Source of the DNA: Acidicapsa dinghuensis
GTDB lineage: Bacteria; Acidobacteriota; Terriglobia; Terriglobales; Acidobacteriaceae
DNA: 64,000 nt
Reading direction: 5' to 3'
Assembly: GCF_025685685.1 (NCBI RefSeq)
Contig: NZ_JAGSYH010000001.1
Location: 186,001 to 250,000 of the forward strand
The position numbers and the translations under genes were made by a program. Shown here one piece after another: positions 14,616 to 55,560 of this stretch. How positions within the stretch are numbered: the first letter of the stretch is position 1; every line of letters begins with the position of its first letter. The notes beneath the pieces were generated by a model. It saw only the letters and a list, made by a program, of their open reading frames with translations, did not search any database and was not told the DNA's origin.

Positions 14616-16289
14616 CTAGAGAATCCCGTCGAAACTCGACGAGGTGAAGTCCGCCGCCGCCCTGCTCCAGCCGATGCGCAAATCTTTCGCCTGGCGCATG
14701 GCGAAATTGCCCGCCGCCGCTCCTGGTCCCGAGGGTTTAGGCGCAGTGATGGCAAAAAAGTCAGCGCGGTCCACATCTTCAAGGTAGAAGGCAGGACGCG
14801 GATCAGGTGCAATGGTGGCTAATTCAACGTGACTCATCTCAAGATGCTTCACATGGCGCAGGAAGAACCCATGACTCGGCGTTGCGCCGAACATGTTGGG
14901 CTCGGGATACTTGGTCTCGTTCTCCGCGGGATTGATTTGCACGGATTCCGCAGGCGCGCCACCCGCGGATTCAATGAAAATATTTGAAAGCTTCACATCT
15001 TCGATGGCGTAGCCGGGAATGCCCACAAGAAGCGAGCCATTGCGCGACGGTGCATTGTGGCACTCAAGATTACTGATGAGCACCCGCCGCAGCGTCCCCA
15101 CCTTTGTGCTTTCCTTCGGACCGCGCAGCCGCGCTCCCAGACGCAGAAAGATCGGGCACGCCGAGAGGTCGCGCATCGTGATGTTGGTGATTGCGATGTC
15201 CTCAAAGAGAGCGCCATCGACTGTTTCCAGCGCAAGCCCCTGGCAGCCTTCAAAGACGCAGTTCGAAACAGTGGTGTTGATGAAGCCACCGTTGGACTCG
15301 GTGCCGAACTTGATGCGGCCAGTGCGGGAGACATGTTCTTCAGGGGCGAATTTTTTGAATGTACCGTCAAGCAGCGTGCCGAGTTGATACTGGCCGGTGA
15401 CGTAGCAGTTCGTGATCGTGAGATTGCGCGTGGGCCGCGCGTACCCGAGCGCATAACTGGATTTCGGACAAATGCCGTCGTCCCAAGGCGAGTTGACGGC
15501 GCAGTTGGAGACGCGGACATTCTGGCAGCAGTCAATGTCCATCCCGTCGCGGTCGGTGTCGATGGTAAGGCCGTCAATGATGAGGTTATCGACTCCCGTA
15601 AGCAGCAGCCCGAAGTGGCCGCCTTTCAGGATCGAAAAATCAGCGAGAGTAACATTGCGGCAGTTCTTGAGCGCGATGGCTTTATTGCCCACGCCTGCCT
15701 GCTCGGCAACGAAAAACACAACGTTGCCTTTGGGATTACGGCCATTCGATAGCCCCCGGCCCCAGACGAGACCAGGCCCGGTAATGCTGATGTCGTGCAG
15801 ATTCTCGCCCCAGATCAGCGAATTATGCCAGTGGTTGTGGCCGTAGTCCTGGTATGGCTCCCATGGGTCGTTTGGCTCGGCTGCATCGTATGTACCGCCG
15901 TTGTAGCCAGTCTTATCGCCGGACTTGGGCGAGTCGGCGGCAAGGATGATCGAGCCCTGCTGCAGCAGCAGATGAACGTTGCTCTTGAGATGAATGGAAA
16001 AAGTCAGGTAACTTCCTGCGGGAAAGAGCACAGTACCGCCGCCCGAAGCGAATGCCTGATCGATAGCGCGATTGATGGCGTCGGTATCGAGCGTTTTGCC
16101 GTCGCCCTTCGCACCAAAGTTGCGTACATCAAAGATGCCGGCCGTTCCGGTAAATCCAGTACGATTTGGCGCTTCTCCTTCAGAATGGTAAAGCTGTGAC
16201 GCAAGACCGGCAGCTGGAAAACCGGCAGCGGCAAGGCCAAAGCTGCTGGTTCGGAGAAAGTTACGGCGGGGAAGATCAATAGGCGGCAT
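14616..16289 (-). CDS. glycoside hydrolase family 28 (polygalacturonase-like), Tat-exported
   Basis: 557 residues from ATG 16289, preceded by GGAGAGGA about 9 nt upstream. A twin-arginine signal (PRRNFLRTSSFGLAAAGFPAAG) points to folded export. The mature part is a right-handed beta-helix beginning FDVRNFGAKGDGKTLDTDAINRAI, as in GH28. Active-site regions fit the family: DTDRDGMDIDCCQNV, PWDDGICPKS (paired Asp) and RTGRIKFGTES (the RIK motif). It probably hydrolyses galacturonan or rhamnogalacturonan side chains. The 5' end is divergent from the metY leader region, with about 90 bp between the ATG and the leader -35 box. Confidence 0.9.
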   Translation of the reverse strand: MPPIDLPRRNFLRTSSFGLAAAGFPAAGLASQLYHSEGEAPNRTGFTGTAGIFDVRNFGAKGDGKTLDTDAINRAIDQAFASGGGTVLFPAGSYLTFSIHLKSNVHLLLQQGSIILAADSPKSGDKTGYNGGTYDAAEPNDPWEPYQDYGHNHWHNSLIWGENLHDISITGPGLVWGRGLSNGRNPKGNVVFFVAEQAGVGNKAIALKNCRNVTLADFSILKGGHFGLLLTGVDNLIIDGLTIDTDRDGMDIDCCQNVRVSNCAVNSPWDDGICPKSSYALGYARPTRNLTITNCYVTGQYQLGTLLDGTFKKFAPEEHVSRTGRIKFGTESNGGFINTTVSNCVFEGCQGLALETVDGALFEDIAITNITMRDLSACPIFLRLGARLRGPKESTKVGTLRRVLISNLECHNAPSRNGSLLVGIPGYAIEDVKLSNIFIESAGGAPAESVQINPAENETKYPEPNMFGATPSHGFFLRHVKHLEMSHVELATIAPDPRPAFYLEDVDRADFFAITAPKPSGPGAAAGNFAMRQAKDLRIGWSRAAADFTSSSFDGIL

Positions 16290-16377
16290 CGTTGAACAGG
16301 TCCTCTCCTCAGGCGGATTCATCGTAACATCCGGAGTTGAAGGGCAGAGGCTGGCGCACGAGACTGTATCGCTGCTG

Positions 16378-16406
16378 TTGACTTAACAAGGGGGTATACA
16401 GATACT
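16378..16406 (+). promoter_or_regulatory. predicted sigma-70-type promoter of the metY leader
   Basis: TTGACT (16378-16383), a 17-bp spacer, then GATACT (16401-16406). Transcription would start at about 16412-16414, on or next to the ATG of the Cys-rich short ORF. TATACA at 16395-16400 looks better as a -10 box but is only 11 bp from TTGACT. Confidence 0.5.
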
Positions 16407-16413
16407 GAGAAAG

Positions 16414-16512
16414 ATGTCTTTTCTGCGCCAAACCGGAGATACCGTGTGCATGTGCTGCACGTGTATGTGCGGGGGATCCGTGCCTTTGGCTCAGAAGCGG
16501 CGCATGCGATAA
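16414..16512 (+). CDS. Cys/Met-rich leader peptide upstream of metY (predicted attenuator ORF)
   Basis: A 32-codon ORF: ATG at 16414, TAA at 16510-16512. It starts MSFLRQTGDT, then has the core VCMCCTCMCGG, and ends with the basic tail QKRRMR. Codons 12-19 contain five Cys and two Met, far above chance. The ORF ends 20 bp before a strong intrinsic terminator, which precedes metY (homocysteine synthesis from O-acetylhomoserine and sulfide) by 75 bp. Position, composition and terminator match amino-acid attenuation leaders (compare the trp and his leaders). Cys-rich leader ORFs that control sulfur genes are described in mycobacteria; I know of no described case in this phylum. Ribosome stalling at scarce Cys-tRNA would prevent termination. 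A weak GAGAAAG precedes the ATG, or the mRNA may be leaderless. No competing antiterminator is obvious by eye. Confidence 0.68.
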   Translation: MSFLRQTGDTVCMCCTCMCGGSVPLAQKRRMR

Positions 16513-16532
16513 GCGCAAACGGTTTGAGACAA

Positions 16533-16570
16533 ACGGCCCGGGTCTAAATGGACTCGGGCCGTTTTGCTTT
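16533..16570 (+). terminator. intrinsic terminator / attenuator before metY
   Basis: A 13-bp stem (ACGGCCCGGGTCT at 16533-16545 against GGACTCGGGCCGT at 16550-16562, with two G-U pairs in RNA) and an AAAT loop, followed by TTTTGCTTTT. A smaller hairpin GTTTG-aga-CAAAC (16522-16534) overlaps the base of the stem and could compete with it. No gene ends here on the plus strand other than the 32-codon leader ORF, so its job must be to end the leader transcript. Confidence 0.85.
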
Positions 16571-16636
16571 TAGCGGCGGCAGAGCTAGCATGGCTGGCGT
16601 GCCAGGATTATTGGGAAACATGAGATGAGGAGATGA

Positions 16637-19266
<2,630 letters not shown>

Positions 19267-32803: not shown

Positions 32804-32895
32804 TGGCGGAGAGTGAGGGATTCGAACCCCCGATACCCATAAAGGTATGGCTGATTTCGAGTCAGCTGCATTCAACCGGGCTCTGCCAACTCTCC
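32804..32895 (-). tRNA. tRNA-Ser (CGA)
   Basis: The minus strand reads GGAGAGT (acceptor) ... CTGA-CTCGAAA-TCAG (anticodon arm, anticodon CGA) ... a long variable arm (ATACC...GGTAT) ... GGGGGTTCGAATCCC (T arm) ... ACTCTCC G CCA. The 7-bp acceptor pairs perfectly and CCA is encoded. The long variable arm and anticodon identify a serine tRNA reading UCG. Confidence 0.95.
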
Positions 32896-52709: not shown

Positions 52710-53381
52710 ATGCCGCGAAAACTCCATTTCATTCGAACATCTGCTCCCCAAGTTTGCCTTGCCGTGCTATCCACTGCCATGTTCTGTCAGACGCACGTCA
52801 GTAGTACGCCGGTAGGCCGTTGGGTTGCAGAGCATCCTTCTCAAGGAGGTGTCGGTTCCTGGTGGGATTTTCGTCCTGACGGCACCTTGACCGAATATGT
52901 AGGAGCGATAGTGACAGTCCCTGTGACTCGATCCGGTGACACACTGATTTTGCCGGCCGGCACAAACGGTGCGCCACCCAGCAAGCTTCAATTCACGGTA
53001 AAGGGCGATGCCCTGGTGCTGAGCGCCAGTGGAACAGAGTCGAGTTTTACTCGCATTGGGCCAGCAATTTCCGCAACGGACCCGCTCCTGGGCAAATGGA
53101 AGCTGGATCGTCCTAAAGTTCCTAGCCCCAACGCACGGCTGGCTGCACTTGAGGAAGCTCAATCAAAGGGTATCTATAGCTTCAACGCTGATGGCACCGA
53201 AAGTGTACGGATCCCTTTCACATCCCTCGATGGCACGTGGAATGCCGACACGCATGCATTTAAACTATCAGGCCGGGACGTAGCATATTCCTTCTTTCTC
53301 TCTGAAGGAAAGCTCGTGCTTGGGCAACCGCCCGATAACAAAACTACCGATACCTATCTTCCTGATCCACTGTTTCGTTAG
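52710..53381 (+). CDS. secreted protein of unknown function, beta-rich
   Basis: 223 residues from ATG 52710 (AAAGGAGAG 5 nt upstream; the frame starts 9 codons earlier). N-terminal signal-like stretch (APQVCLAVLSTAMFCQ). Two similar lipocalin-like modules are visible: PVGRWVAEHPSQGGVGSWWDFRPDGTLTEYVGAIVTVPV... with FTVKGDALVLSASG, and LLGKWKLDRP...GIYSFNADGTESVRIPF with LSEGKLVLG. The G-W...F-DGT...L pattern is common in secreted acidobacterial DUFs. No catalytic residues are evident. Confidence 0.75.
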   Translation: MPRKLHFIRTSAPQVCLAVLSTAMFCQTHVSSTPVGRWVAEHPSQGGVGSWWDFRPDGTLTEYVGAIVTVPVTRSGDTLILPAGTNGAPPSKLQFTVKGDALVLSASGTESSFTRIGPAISATDPLLGKWKLDRPKVPSPNARLAALEEAQSKGIYSFNADGTESVRIPFTSLDGTWNADTHAFKLSGRDVAYSFFLSEGKLVLGQPPDNKTTDTYLPDPLFR

Positions 53382-53424
53382 AGGTGGCTGCGCAATCAAA
53401 TAGCCACCTCGTTGAAACTGATCA

Positions 53425-55560
53425 CTATCTTTGCGCAGGTGAGCTTTGCAACTCCGGCCCTATCCGGTTGGAATAACGAAAGCCCTCACGTCGGTCGTCA
53501 TCAATTGTCCAGAACATCGCGCCGATCAGTGCTGGATATCCGCGTGGCTCACGCAATCTGTACTTAGCATCTGCGGGCATCTTGCCCGTCACCAGATATC
53601 GCATCGCCTCATCCACCACCTCAGGCGTGTTGTAGTCTGTCAGAAATCCAACCGCCACCTTATCCGCCGGAAGCCCCGGAAAGAACTCGCCCTTCTTCCC
53701 ACCCGGATAGAACCCGCGCAGCAAAAGCTCCGTCATAGCTGCGTGATAATCCACCGAGTTCGACTCATAAATCTCCCCATCCAGCCCATCCATCGGAGGC
53801 GTGTTGTAGTCCTGCACATCCACAAACGTGAGTATGTCCTTCAATCCCCAGATCAGCGGCAGATACGACCCGAACTGCCCGCCATACGTCGCATACCCCC
53901 CCGGAATCTGCGAACCCTCCGGCACCAGGCTGATCTTGAACCCCGGCCCAAACTTCTCACGCAACTCCCGCAACCCGGCAATCAGGTTCACCACCGACGG
54001 CGTAGTCGGATGCTTGAAATCCGTGTCCCCCGGATCGAGCGCCAGTGACGGTGTCTCAAAGTCGATATCCACACCCTCAAACCCATACTCTGAAATCACC
54101 GCCGCCACCGACGACACAAATCCCGGAATCTCGCTCGCCTTGTTGAGCTTGAAATACTGCCCCCCGCCGCCCAGCGAAATCATCACCGTCTTGCCCTGGC
54201 TCTTGAGCAGCGCAATATCCGCCTTCAGCTCATCCGGAGCAATCCCCGGCGGCGGCTCATAGCGCAGCACCCCATCCGGCGCATGCGGATCAGGCGAAGC
54301 AAACGCCGCCAGAATCACATCCCACTGCGGCGAAACATCCTTCAACCGGAACGGCTCCGACCCTTCGCCAAATCGCGACCCAGTCCAATACCCGATCAGC
54401 TTATGCTCGTTCCCCGCCCCGCTCTGGGGCAGCGCGCTCGCAGTCTCAGCTCTTGTCGCCTCTCGCTCTCGCCGATTCATGCACGGCTCCGCGGGAGATT
54501 TCAGCGCCGCCGTATCAGGAAAACTGAATGTCCCCGAGACAACCACCCCATTCAGATACCAGTGCAAGAGAGCCACGTTCTGCAGATGATATGCAAACCC
54601 TCCTGCTTTTACCGTGAAAGCCGGCGAAGCCGGAAACCCGTTCTTCGCATTCGTATTCGTCGGCTCAAGCAGAAAGTAGTTCGTCCCCACACCTGAGCCG
54701 CCACACTTCTCGTCCTGCTCCCCCATACGCCACGGCGGAAAGAAATTTCCCGGCGCATCCTGCGTCTTGAAGTAATACCGCGGATCATGCTTCGGATCGT
54801 TGAAATACTCGCCTAACTGCTGCGTCAACGGCTGTACATCGCGGTCCGTCACAATCGCCGGAGCATTTGCAATATACGTCCCCAGCACAAATGAATCGCC
54901 CGTCGCCCAGTCAATCCCATGCGTGCCCCACGTGCAGCACACCGTCGCATCCGCATCCGCAAAGTACGTCGTGTTATGTGTGAACGCGACGATCAGCTTG
55001 CCCGCCGTCCACGGAATCTGCCGGAAGAGATCCTTCTGCACATACTCCGAATCCACCACCGCAAACGCCCCGCCATTCTTCCGCGAATGCAGCAGATACC
55101 CATTCCCCGCCGGAATATCGATGGTGATCGGCTGTACCTCCGGCTTCTCCAGCACCGTGTGCCCAACCGCTCCCTGCGGAAACGTCGCATGCAGCAGCGC
55201 ATCGCCATATTGCATCGGCGCGCTACCGCCCAGAGCAACAGGCTTGAAGATCGGCGACTCGAGCACGCGCGCCACATCCGCCTCGGCACTCATCCGCTCG
55301 CTGTGCCCTTCAAACGTGAGCGTGATAGGCACCAGCAGCACCGGAACCGTCGTCGTCCCCGCCACCGCCGGATCATGCCCCGCCATCGTGTAAGCATTCC
55401 CGCCCAGCGTCCGTTGAAAGGTAGGAACCGTTCCCTGCGCCCACACACGCGGCACAAGCAGCAGCAAAACACAAAACCAGAGCAGTCGAATCTTCGTCGC
55501 CAAAGTCACGCAACCTAAAGTGGAATCAAAACAGTTCGTATCGCATTCTTTCACGTCCAC
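53425..55560 (-). CDS. secreted GH18 glycoside hydrolase with large N-terminal domain
   Basis: 711 residues if started at GTG 55560; GTG 55509 gives 694 and begins just before the signal peptide (KIRLLWFCVLLLLVPRVWAQ). Residues about 25-360 form a separate domain without known family: VPVLLVPITLTFEGH..., TVCCTWGTHGIDWATGDSFVLGTYIANAP. Residues about 385-700 are a GH18 TIM barrel: KLIGYWTGSRFGEGSEPF, KTVMISLGGGGQYF, the catalytic FEGVDIDFE (Glu at the end) and VQDYN, GAMFWTIDDD. It hydrolyses chitin-like or N-glycan-core beta-1,4-GlcNAc links. The N-terminal domain resembles stand-alone acidobacterial secreted proteins, so this looks like a fusion. Confidence 0.88.
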   Translation of the reverse strand: MDVKECDTNCFDSTLGCVTLATKIRLLWFCVLLLLVPRVWAQGTVPTFQRTLGGNAYTMAGHDPAVAGTTTVPVLLVPITLTFEGHSERMSAEADVARVLESPIFKPVALGGSAPMQYGDALLHATFPQGAVGHTVLEKPEVQPITIDIPAGNGYLLHSRKNGGAFAVVDSEYVQKDLFRQIPWTAGKLIVAFTHNTTYFADADATVCCTWGTHGIDWATGDSFVLGTYIANAPAIVTDRDVQPLTQQLGEYFNDPKHDPRYYFKTQDAPGNFFPPWRMGEQDEKCGGSGVGTNYFLLEPTNTNAKNGFPASPAFTVKAGGFAYHLQNVALLHWYLNGVVVSGTFSFPDTAALKSPAEPCMNRREREATRAETASALPQSGAGNEHKLIGYWTGSRFGEGSEPFRLKDVSPQWDVILAAFASPDPHAPDGVLRYEPPPGIAPDELKADIALLKSQGKTVMISLGGGGQYFKLNKASEIPGFVSSVAAVISEYGFEGVDIDFETPSLALDPGDTDFKHPTTPSVVNLIAGLRELREKFGPGFKISLVPEGSQIPGGYATYGGQFGSYLPLIWGLKDILTFVDVQDYNTPPMDGLDGEIYESNSVDYHAAMTELLLRGFYPGGKKGEFFPGLPADKVAVGFLTDYNTPEVVDEAMRYLVTGKMPADAKYRLREPRGYPALIGAMFWTIDDDRREGFRYSNRIGPELQSSPAQR

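Follow-up and report, generated by a model that had tools for sequence, protein, structure and literature searches.

A leader ORF rich in Met and Cys codons upstream of metY-metX in Acidicapsa dinghuensis, a probable ribosome-mediated transcription attenuator

How is the expression of metY-metX, the genes for homocysteine formation, controlled in Acidicapsa dinghuensis, where a short open reading frame (ORF) rich in Cys and Met codons and a hairpin terminator separate the promoter from the first gene? In bacteria, SAM riboswitches, T-boxes or repressors are the usual explanations of methionine control. A sequence-only reading of the window, i.e., the whole stretch of 64,000 nucleotides analysed here, located on contig C9 of a genome of 6.17 Mb, had proposed a transcription attenuator. 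With corrections, this proposal was well supported by conservation, frame-specific selection and a covarying terminator and antiterminator. The metY-metX leader is very probably a ribosome-mediated transcription attenuator that senses the supply of Met and Cys. The locus comprises the following parts:

14616..16322, leftward: rhamnogalacturonidase-like gene, the left neighbour
16378..16406, plus strand: sigma-70-like promoter, -35 box TTGACT (16378-16383), spacer of 17 nt, -10 box GATACT (16401-16406)
16414..16512, plus strand: leader peptide ORF of 32 codons, MSFLRQTGDTVCMCCTCMCGGSVPLAQKRRMR
16447..16470, plus strand: putative control codons C-M-C-C-T-C-M-C, based on frame-specific pN/pS
16474..16484, plus strand: segment 2, coding, directly 3' of the control codons, pairs with the terminator 5' arm
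16474..16545, plus strand: predicted antiterminator, a single long imperfect hairpin with a coding 5' arm, based on folding and covariation
16531..16564, plus strand: intrinsic terminator hairpin of 15 pairs, 5' arm 16531-16545, 3' arm 16550-16564
16565..16571, plus strand: T-rich terminator tail TGCTTTT
16637..17965, plus strand: metY, O-acetylhomoserine sulfhydrylase / homocysteine synthase, the controlled gene (NCBIfam NF006096, above cut-off)
17962..19266, plus strand: metX, homoserine O-acetyltransferase (NF001209 above cut-off, TIGR01392 below its own)

Translation bore out the 32-codon ORF, in which the nine-codon stretch VCMCCTCMC (16444-16470) contains five Cys and two Met, and the NCBIfam matches agreed with the proposed identity and order of metY and metX, which overlap by 4 nt. 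The terminator read after the ORF was present, but its size and position had to be corrected: it has 15 pairs at 16531-16564, not a 13-bp stem beginning at 16533. The stem begins 18 nt past the leader stop codon. The start of metY had been placed 75 bp past the terminator; the actual distance is 65 nt from the terminator tail, and approximately 124 nt from the leader stop. An assignment of the terminator to the left-hand gene was rejected, as this gene runs the opposite way. In a promoter scan of 16250-16750, the combination TTGACT-17-GATACT was the sole promoter-like site, with 0.2 expected in shuffles; the first base of its -35 box, 16378, coincides with the start of the region delimited in the sequence-only reading. 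The scan revealed no promoter-like site downstream of 16570, to 16750, thus a transcription start of metY in this stretch was not supported. No Rfam family reached the threshold at the leader. The sole Rfam match in the window was a tRNA gene of 89 bases (32807-32895, minus strand).

MetY homologues were present in 100 of 100 relatives, many of them distant paralogues. At E <= 1e-170, homologues were found in 123 of 398 genomes of the family; from the set of upstream regions, G140, G425 and G436 were excluded as partial. Removal of L112 (125 bases) and L122 (runs of N) left 121 metY loci, including two from other families of the class (L030, L031) and a second homologue in one genome (L124). 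A leader was assigned in 110 of the 121 loci, in 100 by script together with a downstream hairpin (weak in L035) and in ten by hand. Nine of the latter showed a terminator-like hairpin by eye, the tenth (L012) is cut by the contig end; the leader assignment is doubtful in L015 and L077. This count supersedes that of a first terminator script (leader and terminator in 97 of 119 loci with hairpin). Eleven of the 121 loci had no leader directly before metY (L021, L023, L030, L031, L086, L089, L091, L092, L102, L105, L124). L021 has a homoserine dehydrogenase gene ahead of metY, and it is this gene that a leader with the run MAMCMHIC precedes (L245, same contig); L102 has a similar putative leader frame just before metY. 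The ORF and its Met and Cys codons were thus kept in relatives, and the lack of conservation that would have spoken against an attenuator was not observed.

The wider sample consisted of the best 80 of 588 relatives from a named collection. A leader ORF was detected in 26 of these 80, all Acidobacteriota by title (L133-L155, L164, L169, L190) and several of them the same organisms as in the family set; for L137 the script found no terminator. Carriers included Acidobacteriaceae MAGs and Terracidiphilus gabretensis, according to the taxonomy file now Occallatibacter gabretensis, Acidobacteriaceae, Terriglobales. Among the remaining 54 were the Acidobacteriota L171, L202 (truncated) and L212, and three loci that passed a loose ORF threshold, L163 as well as L182 and L186, the last two without a terminator. 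In the Gemmatimonadales MAG L163, metY is preceded by a short ORF containing MAMCRSHC and by a strong terminator rich in GC; the system may extend beyond Acidobacteriota. A model built on family sequences (R1), which says little about leaders of other sequence elsewhere, was run on 199 genomes of the phylum and gave matches at E <= 1e-6 in nine, each of them a member of the window's family. Not all of these matches were metY leaders: G256 and G278 had them before hisG, G027 before a reductase, and the match in G182 covers little beyond the terminator.

A sigma-70-like promoter was located by script in 88 of the 110 leader loci. The -10 box ended 6, 7 or 8 nt before an in-frame ATG in 12, 55 and 5 loci, respectively (72 of 110), and 9-12 nt before it in the other 16 of the 88. 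The usual distance between -10 box and transcription start is about 7 nt; with this spacing, the leader mRNA is predicted to start within 0-2 bases of the AUG, in the window at approximately 16413-16414. Judged by the position of the promoters, the mRNA is probably leaderless. A single subgroup of the window genus (L008, L014, L016-L020) carries a tRNA gene a short distance 5' of the leader promoter.

The leader ORFs were picked by their Met/Cys content, and the shuffle control is the sole correction for that choice. The combination of an ORF holding five or more Met/Cys in 9 codons with a terminator within 95 nt was present in 85 of 121 real regions, in 2 of 121 reverse complements and in none of 605 dinucleotide shuffles; for the ORF alone, the respective counts were 92, 5 and 1. 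A chance origin was rejected on the basis of both controls. The run contained 5.8 Met plus Cys per nine codons in frame vs 2.5 and 0.2 in the other frames, with use of both Cys codons (TGC 142, TGT 115). pN/pS ratios were determined in 49 loci that passed a permissive filter on the core and the C-terminus. For codons one to five of the core, the ratio was 0.35 in frame, compared with 1.53 and 0.87 for the two other frames. No constraint was seen in the ten codons that precede the core (1.15). The twelve C-terminal codons, which are part of the RNA structure as well, had a value of 0.61. The pattern of synonymous substitution that had been suggested as a check was thus observed in the core, and on these alignments no frame of the Met/Cys run other than its own is under selection. 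Selection thus concerns the codons of the run and not the residues ahead of it, a pattern that fits an attenuator but not a functional peptide. A scan of the window for residue-rich short ORFs with a terminator yielded eight other ORFs, Arg-, Ser- or Leu-rich, which were judged not credible.

The conserved terminator was recovered with RNAalifold from 105 sequences; 7 of 10 consensus pairs had changes on both sides. The alternative antiterminator pairing sought in the same region exists as well, between segment 2 and the 5' arm of the terminator, and covaries with the terminator. The helix score was 20.15 for native pairs vs 15.35 with arms of other loci that deviate from the native arm at three or more positions, and the native arm was better in 95 of 105 rows; in three control regions the native advantage was 0.27, -0.81 and 0.21. 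A first duplex test gave -16.6 kcal/mol for native, -14.4 for swapped and -13.3 for shuffled partners, with the native better in 73 of 100. It was weaker than the helix-score test, which compared only differing arms. Sliding the register on the alignment separated poorly, with mean pairs of 6.78 for the chosen register vs 6.64 and 5.46 one column off. In a ranking of alignment columns by pairing excess, terminator pairs came first and third and two pairs of segment 2 with the arm fourth and eighth, the latter not in the exact register of the window. This ranking was not used as proof, because unrelated pairs also rank high, probably due to shared ancestry.

Before the 3' arm of the terminator is made, the window RNA between the last codon of the run and the last base of the 5' arm folds into one long hairpin (MFE -31.6 kcal/mol), with the leader stop codon (16510-16512) in the apical loop. 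The folding was extended to 94 loci with a script-found terminator and suitable length. The antiterminator had a mean of -32.7 kcal/mol and a mean z of -2.5, with z < -2 in 63 loci. The stop codon was enclosed by at least 8 pairs in all 94, and in 89 the terminator arm formed pairs with leader codons 5' of the stop; in the other five, including L098, the arm was not paired as predicted. The whole antiterminator was a better description than the hairpin at the stop codon alone, which enclosed the stop in 93 of 96 loci with a mean z of -1.27. Once the 3' arm is present, the terminator of the window is the stronger structure (-45.9 vs -36.6 kcal/mol for the antiterminator), thus the outcome must be kinetic. 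In attenuators, the full-length terminator usually wins and the order of folding decides. A pairing of the Met/Cys codons with segment 2 (1:2) looked good by eye in several loci. It was dropped from the model, as swapped partners paired equally (14.95 native vs 14.58 swapped, 54 of 105 rows).

From these structures we infer the following course. Transcription would begin at or beside the leader AUG, as predicted from the promoter, and a ribosome would load at the 5' end and translate the leader behind the RNA polymerase. If charged Met- or Cys-tRNA is scarce, the ribosome would stall in the run of Met and Cys codons, the end of which borders on segment 2. The stretch between the beginning of segment 2 and the end of the terminator 5' arm could then fold as the antiterminator, and readthrough would allow transcription of metY-metX; covariation backs the pairing, and its formation in the stalled state is presumed. 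If both are plentiful, the reading ribosome would pass the coding segment 2, reach the stop inside the hairpin and disrupt the antiterminator, the terminator at 16531-16564 would form and transcription would end before metY. The charging of tRNA would thus be the quantity sensed. A third, sequestering hairpin (1:2) is unnecessary for this course and was not supported. A gap of 3-6 nt separates the last control codons from segment 2, part of which would thus be covered during a stall on these codons. Only stalls on earlier control codons leave segment 2 free, which is a weakness of the model.

Which amino acids are read was deduced from the composition of the run. The mean content per nine codons was 4.1 Cys and 3.1 Met in the window genus (14 loci) and 2.1 Cys and 3.6 Met outside of it (93 loci), with L012, L015 and L077 omitted from the averages. 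No row was without Met, four rows were without Cys, thus Met is the constant signal at metY. Control by 'Cys (and perhaps Met)', as first proposed, should read 'Met and Cys'.

Leaders of this type were not restricted to metY. R1 matched at E <= 0.01 in 214 of 300 family genomes, in many weakly or over the terminator part, and twenty places besides the known metY leaders were read. Met/Cys or Cys leaders preceded uroporphyrinogen-III methyltransferase and cysD (L244), cysD (L249), a NIR_SIR protein (L260) and a TauE-type exporter (L252); a leader with the run PCCCCLCIC preceded cysK (L251). Further leaders were situated before homoserine dehydrogenase (L245) and before a nitrite/sulfite-reductase-like protein (L254), for which the reductase matches were below and CobG above cut-off. 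L259 was another metY. In L248, an ABC permease is encoded approximately 1 kb downstream of the leader, and in L253 the leader is followed by a gene without assigned identity and a hexapeptide transferase. The gene downstream is likewise without assigned identity at L243, L247 and L257, with a doubtful leader in the last.

Leaders before genes of the NIR_SIR family (sulfite/nitrite reductases) were obtained in 12 of 24 loci with a looser threshold and in 9 of 24 with a stricter Cys-only threshold. The nine had a mean of 4.2 Cys and 0.3 Met, a ratio favoured by the Cys-only threshold, and shuffles were run for metY only. The window genome's own NIR_SIR copies (L320, L335) had no such leader. 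Of 30 loci examined for leaders within 1.5 kb of cysD/cysH, two had one, and both belong to a different family of the order; the window genus had none. A His leader was located upstream of hisG in L256, and L258 and L261 look alike. Upstream of HisG, His leaders with terminators were counted in 17 of 19 loci, a raw count, as the shuffles cover metY. The terminator arm paired as in the metY leaders in 16 of 17 folded His leaders, with L305 as the exception. The window genome itself (L300, G000:C11) has a His-rich leader with terminator, MQTHRHHRHHHHHGTTMPADCYGLN, with the run HRHHRHHHH, 628 nt upstream of a HisG match at 53327-53809. In L262, a Tyr-rich leader (MHSYYAYYYASD) and a terminator lie directly before phenylalanine 4-monooxygenase, the tyrosine-making enzyme.

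The leader residue matches the product of the genes downstream, with Met/Cys or Cys at sulfur genes, His at hisG and Tyr at phenylalanine hydroxylase. Among the arguments for a sensing of codon supply, this match is the strongest. It bears directly on the view that the leader is a ligand- or protein-binding RNA, e.g., a new SAM or methionine riboswitch, with an incidental short ORF. Riboswitches of the types SAM-I (L160, L170, L172) and SAM-IV (L191) indeed occupied the position upstream of metY in 4 of 20 loci scanned outside the family, and they share this position in some other phyla. However, Rfam matches above threshold were lacking near the leader of the window and confined to tRNAs in the 29 loci L003-L031, the Met/Cys run is selected in its reading frame, and the run turns into His before hisG and Tyr before phenylalanine hydroxylase. 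Unlike in SAM riboswitches and T-boxes, the sensor appears to be a translated ORF, and we consider a binding RNA very improbable. The nascent peptide itself might sense metals or oxidation or arrest the ribosome, independent of codon supply; alternating Cys/Met runs could bind soft metals. This explanation has just as little probability, since the ten residues before the run are not conserved, the run itself varies (CCMCMCMC, MAMCMCM, MSMRMPMC) and the leader residues track the downstream pathway.

An attenuation at the level of translation or linked to Rho has a slightly better standing, but is still unlikely. In this case, the leader would act on metY via ribosome traffic and the terminator would be secondary. 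The closest precedents, the leaderless Cys- or Met-rich leaders of mycobacteria (PMC4633059) and metL of S. lividans (PMC8079986), argue for it, the latter being reported to lack a typical terminator. In the metY loci, however, a covarying terminator and a mutually exclusive, covarying antiterminator sit between leader and metY, and the two ORFs do not overlap, given the distance between leader stop and metY start. Ribosome-mediated transcription attenuation is thus the preferred explanation.

Attenuators of the trp/his/thr/leu/ilv type combine a short ORF containing a run of the regulated residue, an intrinsic terminator, a mutually exclusive antiterminator and a biosynthetic operon. The metY leader resembles them in its residue-run ORF, its terminator, an antiterminator sharing one arm with it and the biosynthetic operon. 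It differs in the residues, Met and Cys, in the probably leaderless start, in its occurrence in Acidobacteriota and in a single long antiterminator that holds the leader stop, with the 1:2 hairpin not supported. Polycysteine leaderless short ORFs of mycobacteria were reportedly described by Canestrari in 2020, and we know of no clear intrinsic terminator in the mycobacterial polycysteine leaders. The metY leader is, like these, a Cys-rich short ORF before sulfur genes, and it is predicted to be leaderless. Unlike these, it has an intrinsic terminator and a covarying antiterminator, would read Met too and is followed by genes for homocysteine formation. The mycobacterial Cys-rich leaders were proposed as the first case of cysteine-directed attenuation (Shell 2015, PMC4633059). 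In S. lividans, the leaderless ORF metL of 29 residues, ending in ARCMCRRMCAF, precedes the import operon metNIQ. It was proposed as a methionine-dependent attenuator with unclear termination, a typical Rho-independent terminator being missing (PMC8079986). A methionine leader as such thus has a precedent. Both metL and the metY leader are short ORFs with Met and Cys codons, leaderless in S. lividans and by prediction here; unlike metL, which belongs to Actinobacteria and to an import operon and for which we know of no described antiterminator, the metY leader has both terminator and antiterminator. Premature 5' terminators were predicted in Acidobacteria and left uncharacterised in an earlier survey (Naville and Gautheret 2010, PMC2965389). 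In searches of open-access papers, judged largely by titles and the openings of abstracts, we found no attenuator with an assigned function in Acidobacteria, most subscription papers being outside that scope.

We tentatively suggest, with a confidence somewhat short of an even chance, that Acidobacteriaceae use a distinct two-state leaderless attenuation as a general amino-acid control. The control codons would abut a single antiterminator holding the stop, the ribosome would be the only switch, and the design would be reused with Met/Cys, Cys, His and Tyr. It would include a methionine leader that is the first to have a terminator and an antiterminator both defined and covarying, at a place where some other phyla have a SAM riboswitch. 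A Met/Cys leader across the family, with terminator and antiterminator covarying, would place methionine firmly among the residues that ribosome-mediated attenuation reads. It would also fill part of the gap of 2010, when attenuators of Acidobacteria were almost without assigned functions (PMC2965389). In plain words, a mini-gene of Cys and Met codons with an RNA stop signal very probably turns on the methionine genes of these soil Acidobacteria under shortage.

A leader of this kind can also give a clue to what an adjacent gene of unassigned role produces. In L246, a Met/Cys leader is followed by a gene without NCBIfam (E 1e-20) or Pfam (E 1e-8) match and then by an LLM-type monooxygenase, the best matches of which, SfnG and SsuD, were below cut-off in a sequence cut by the fetched edge. 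L250 and L255 resemble L246. The leader hints at a role of the unmatched gene in sulfur supply.
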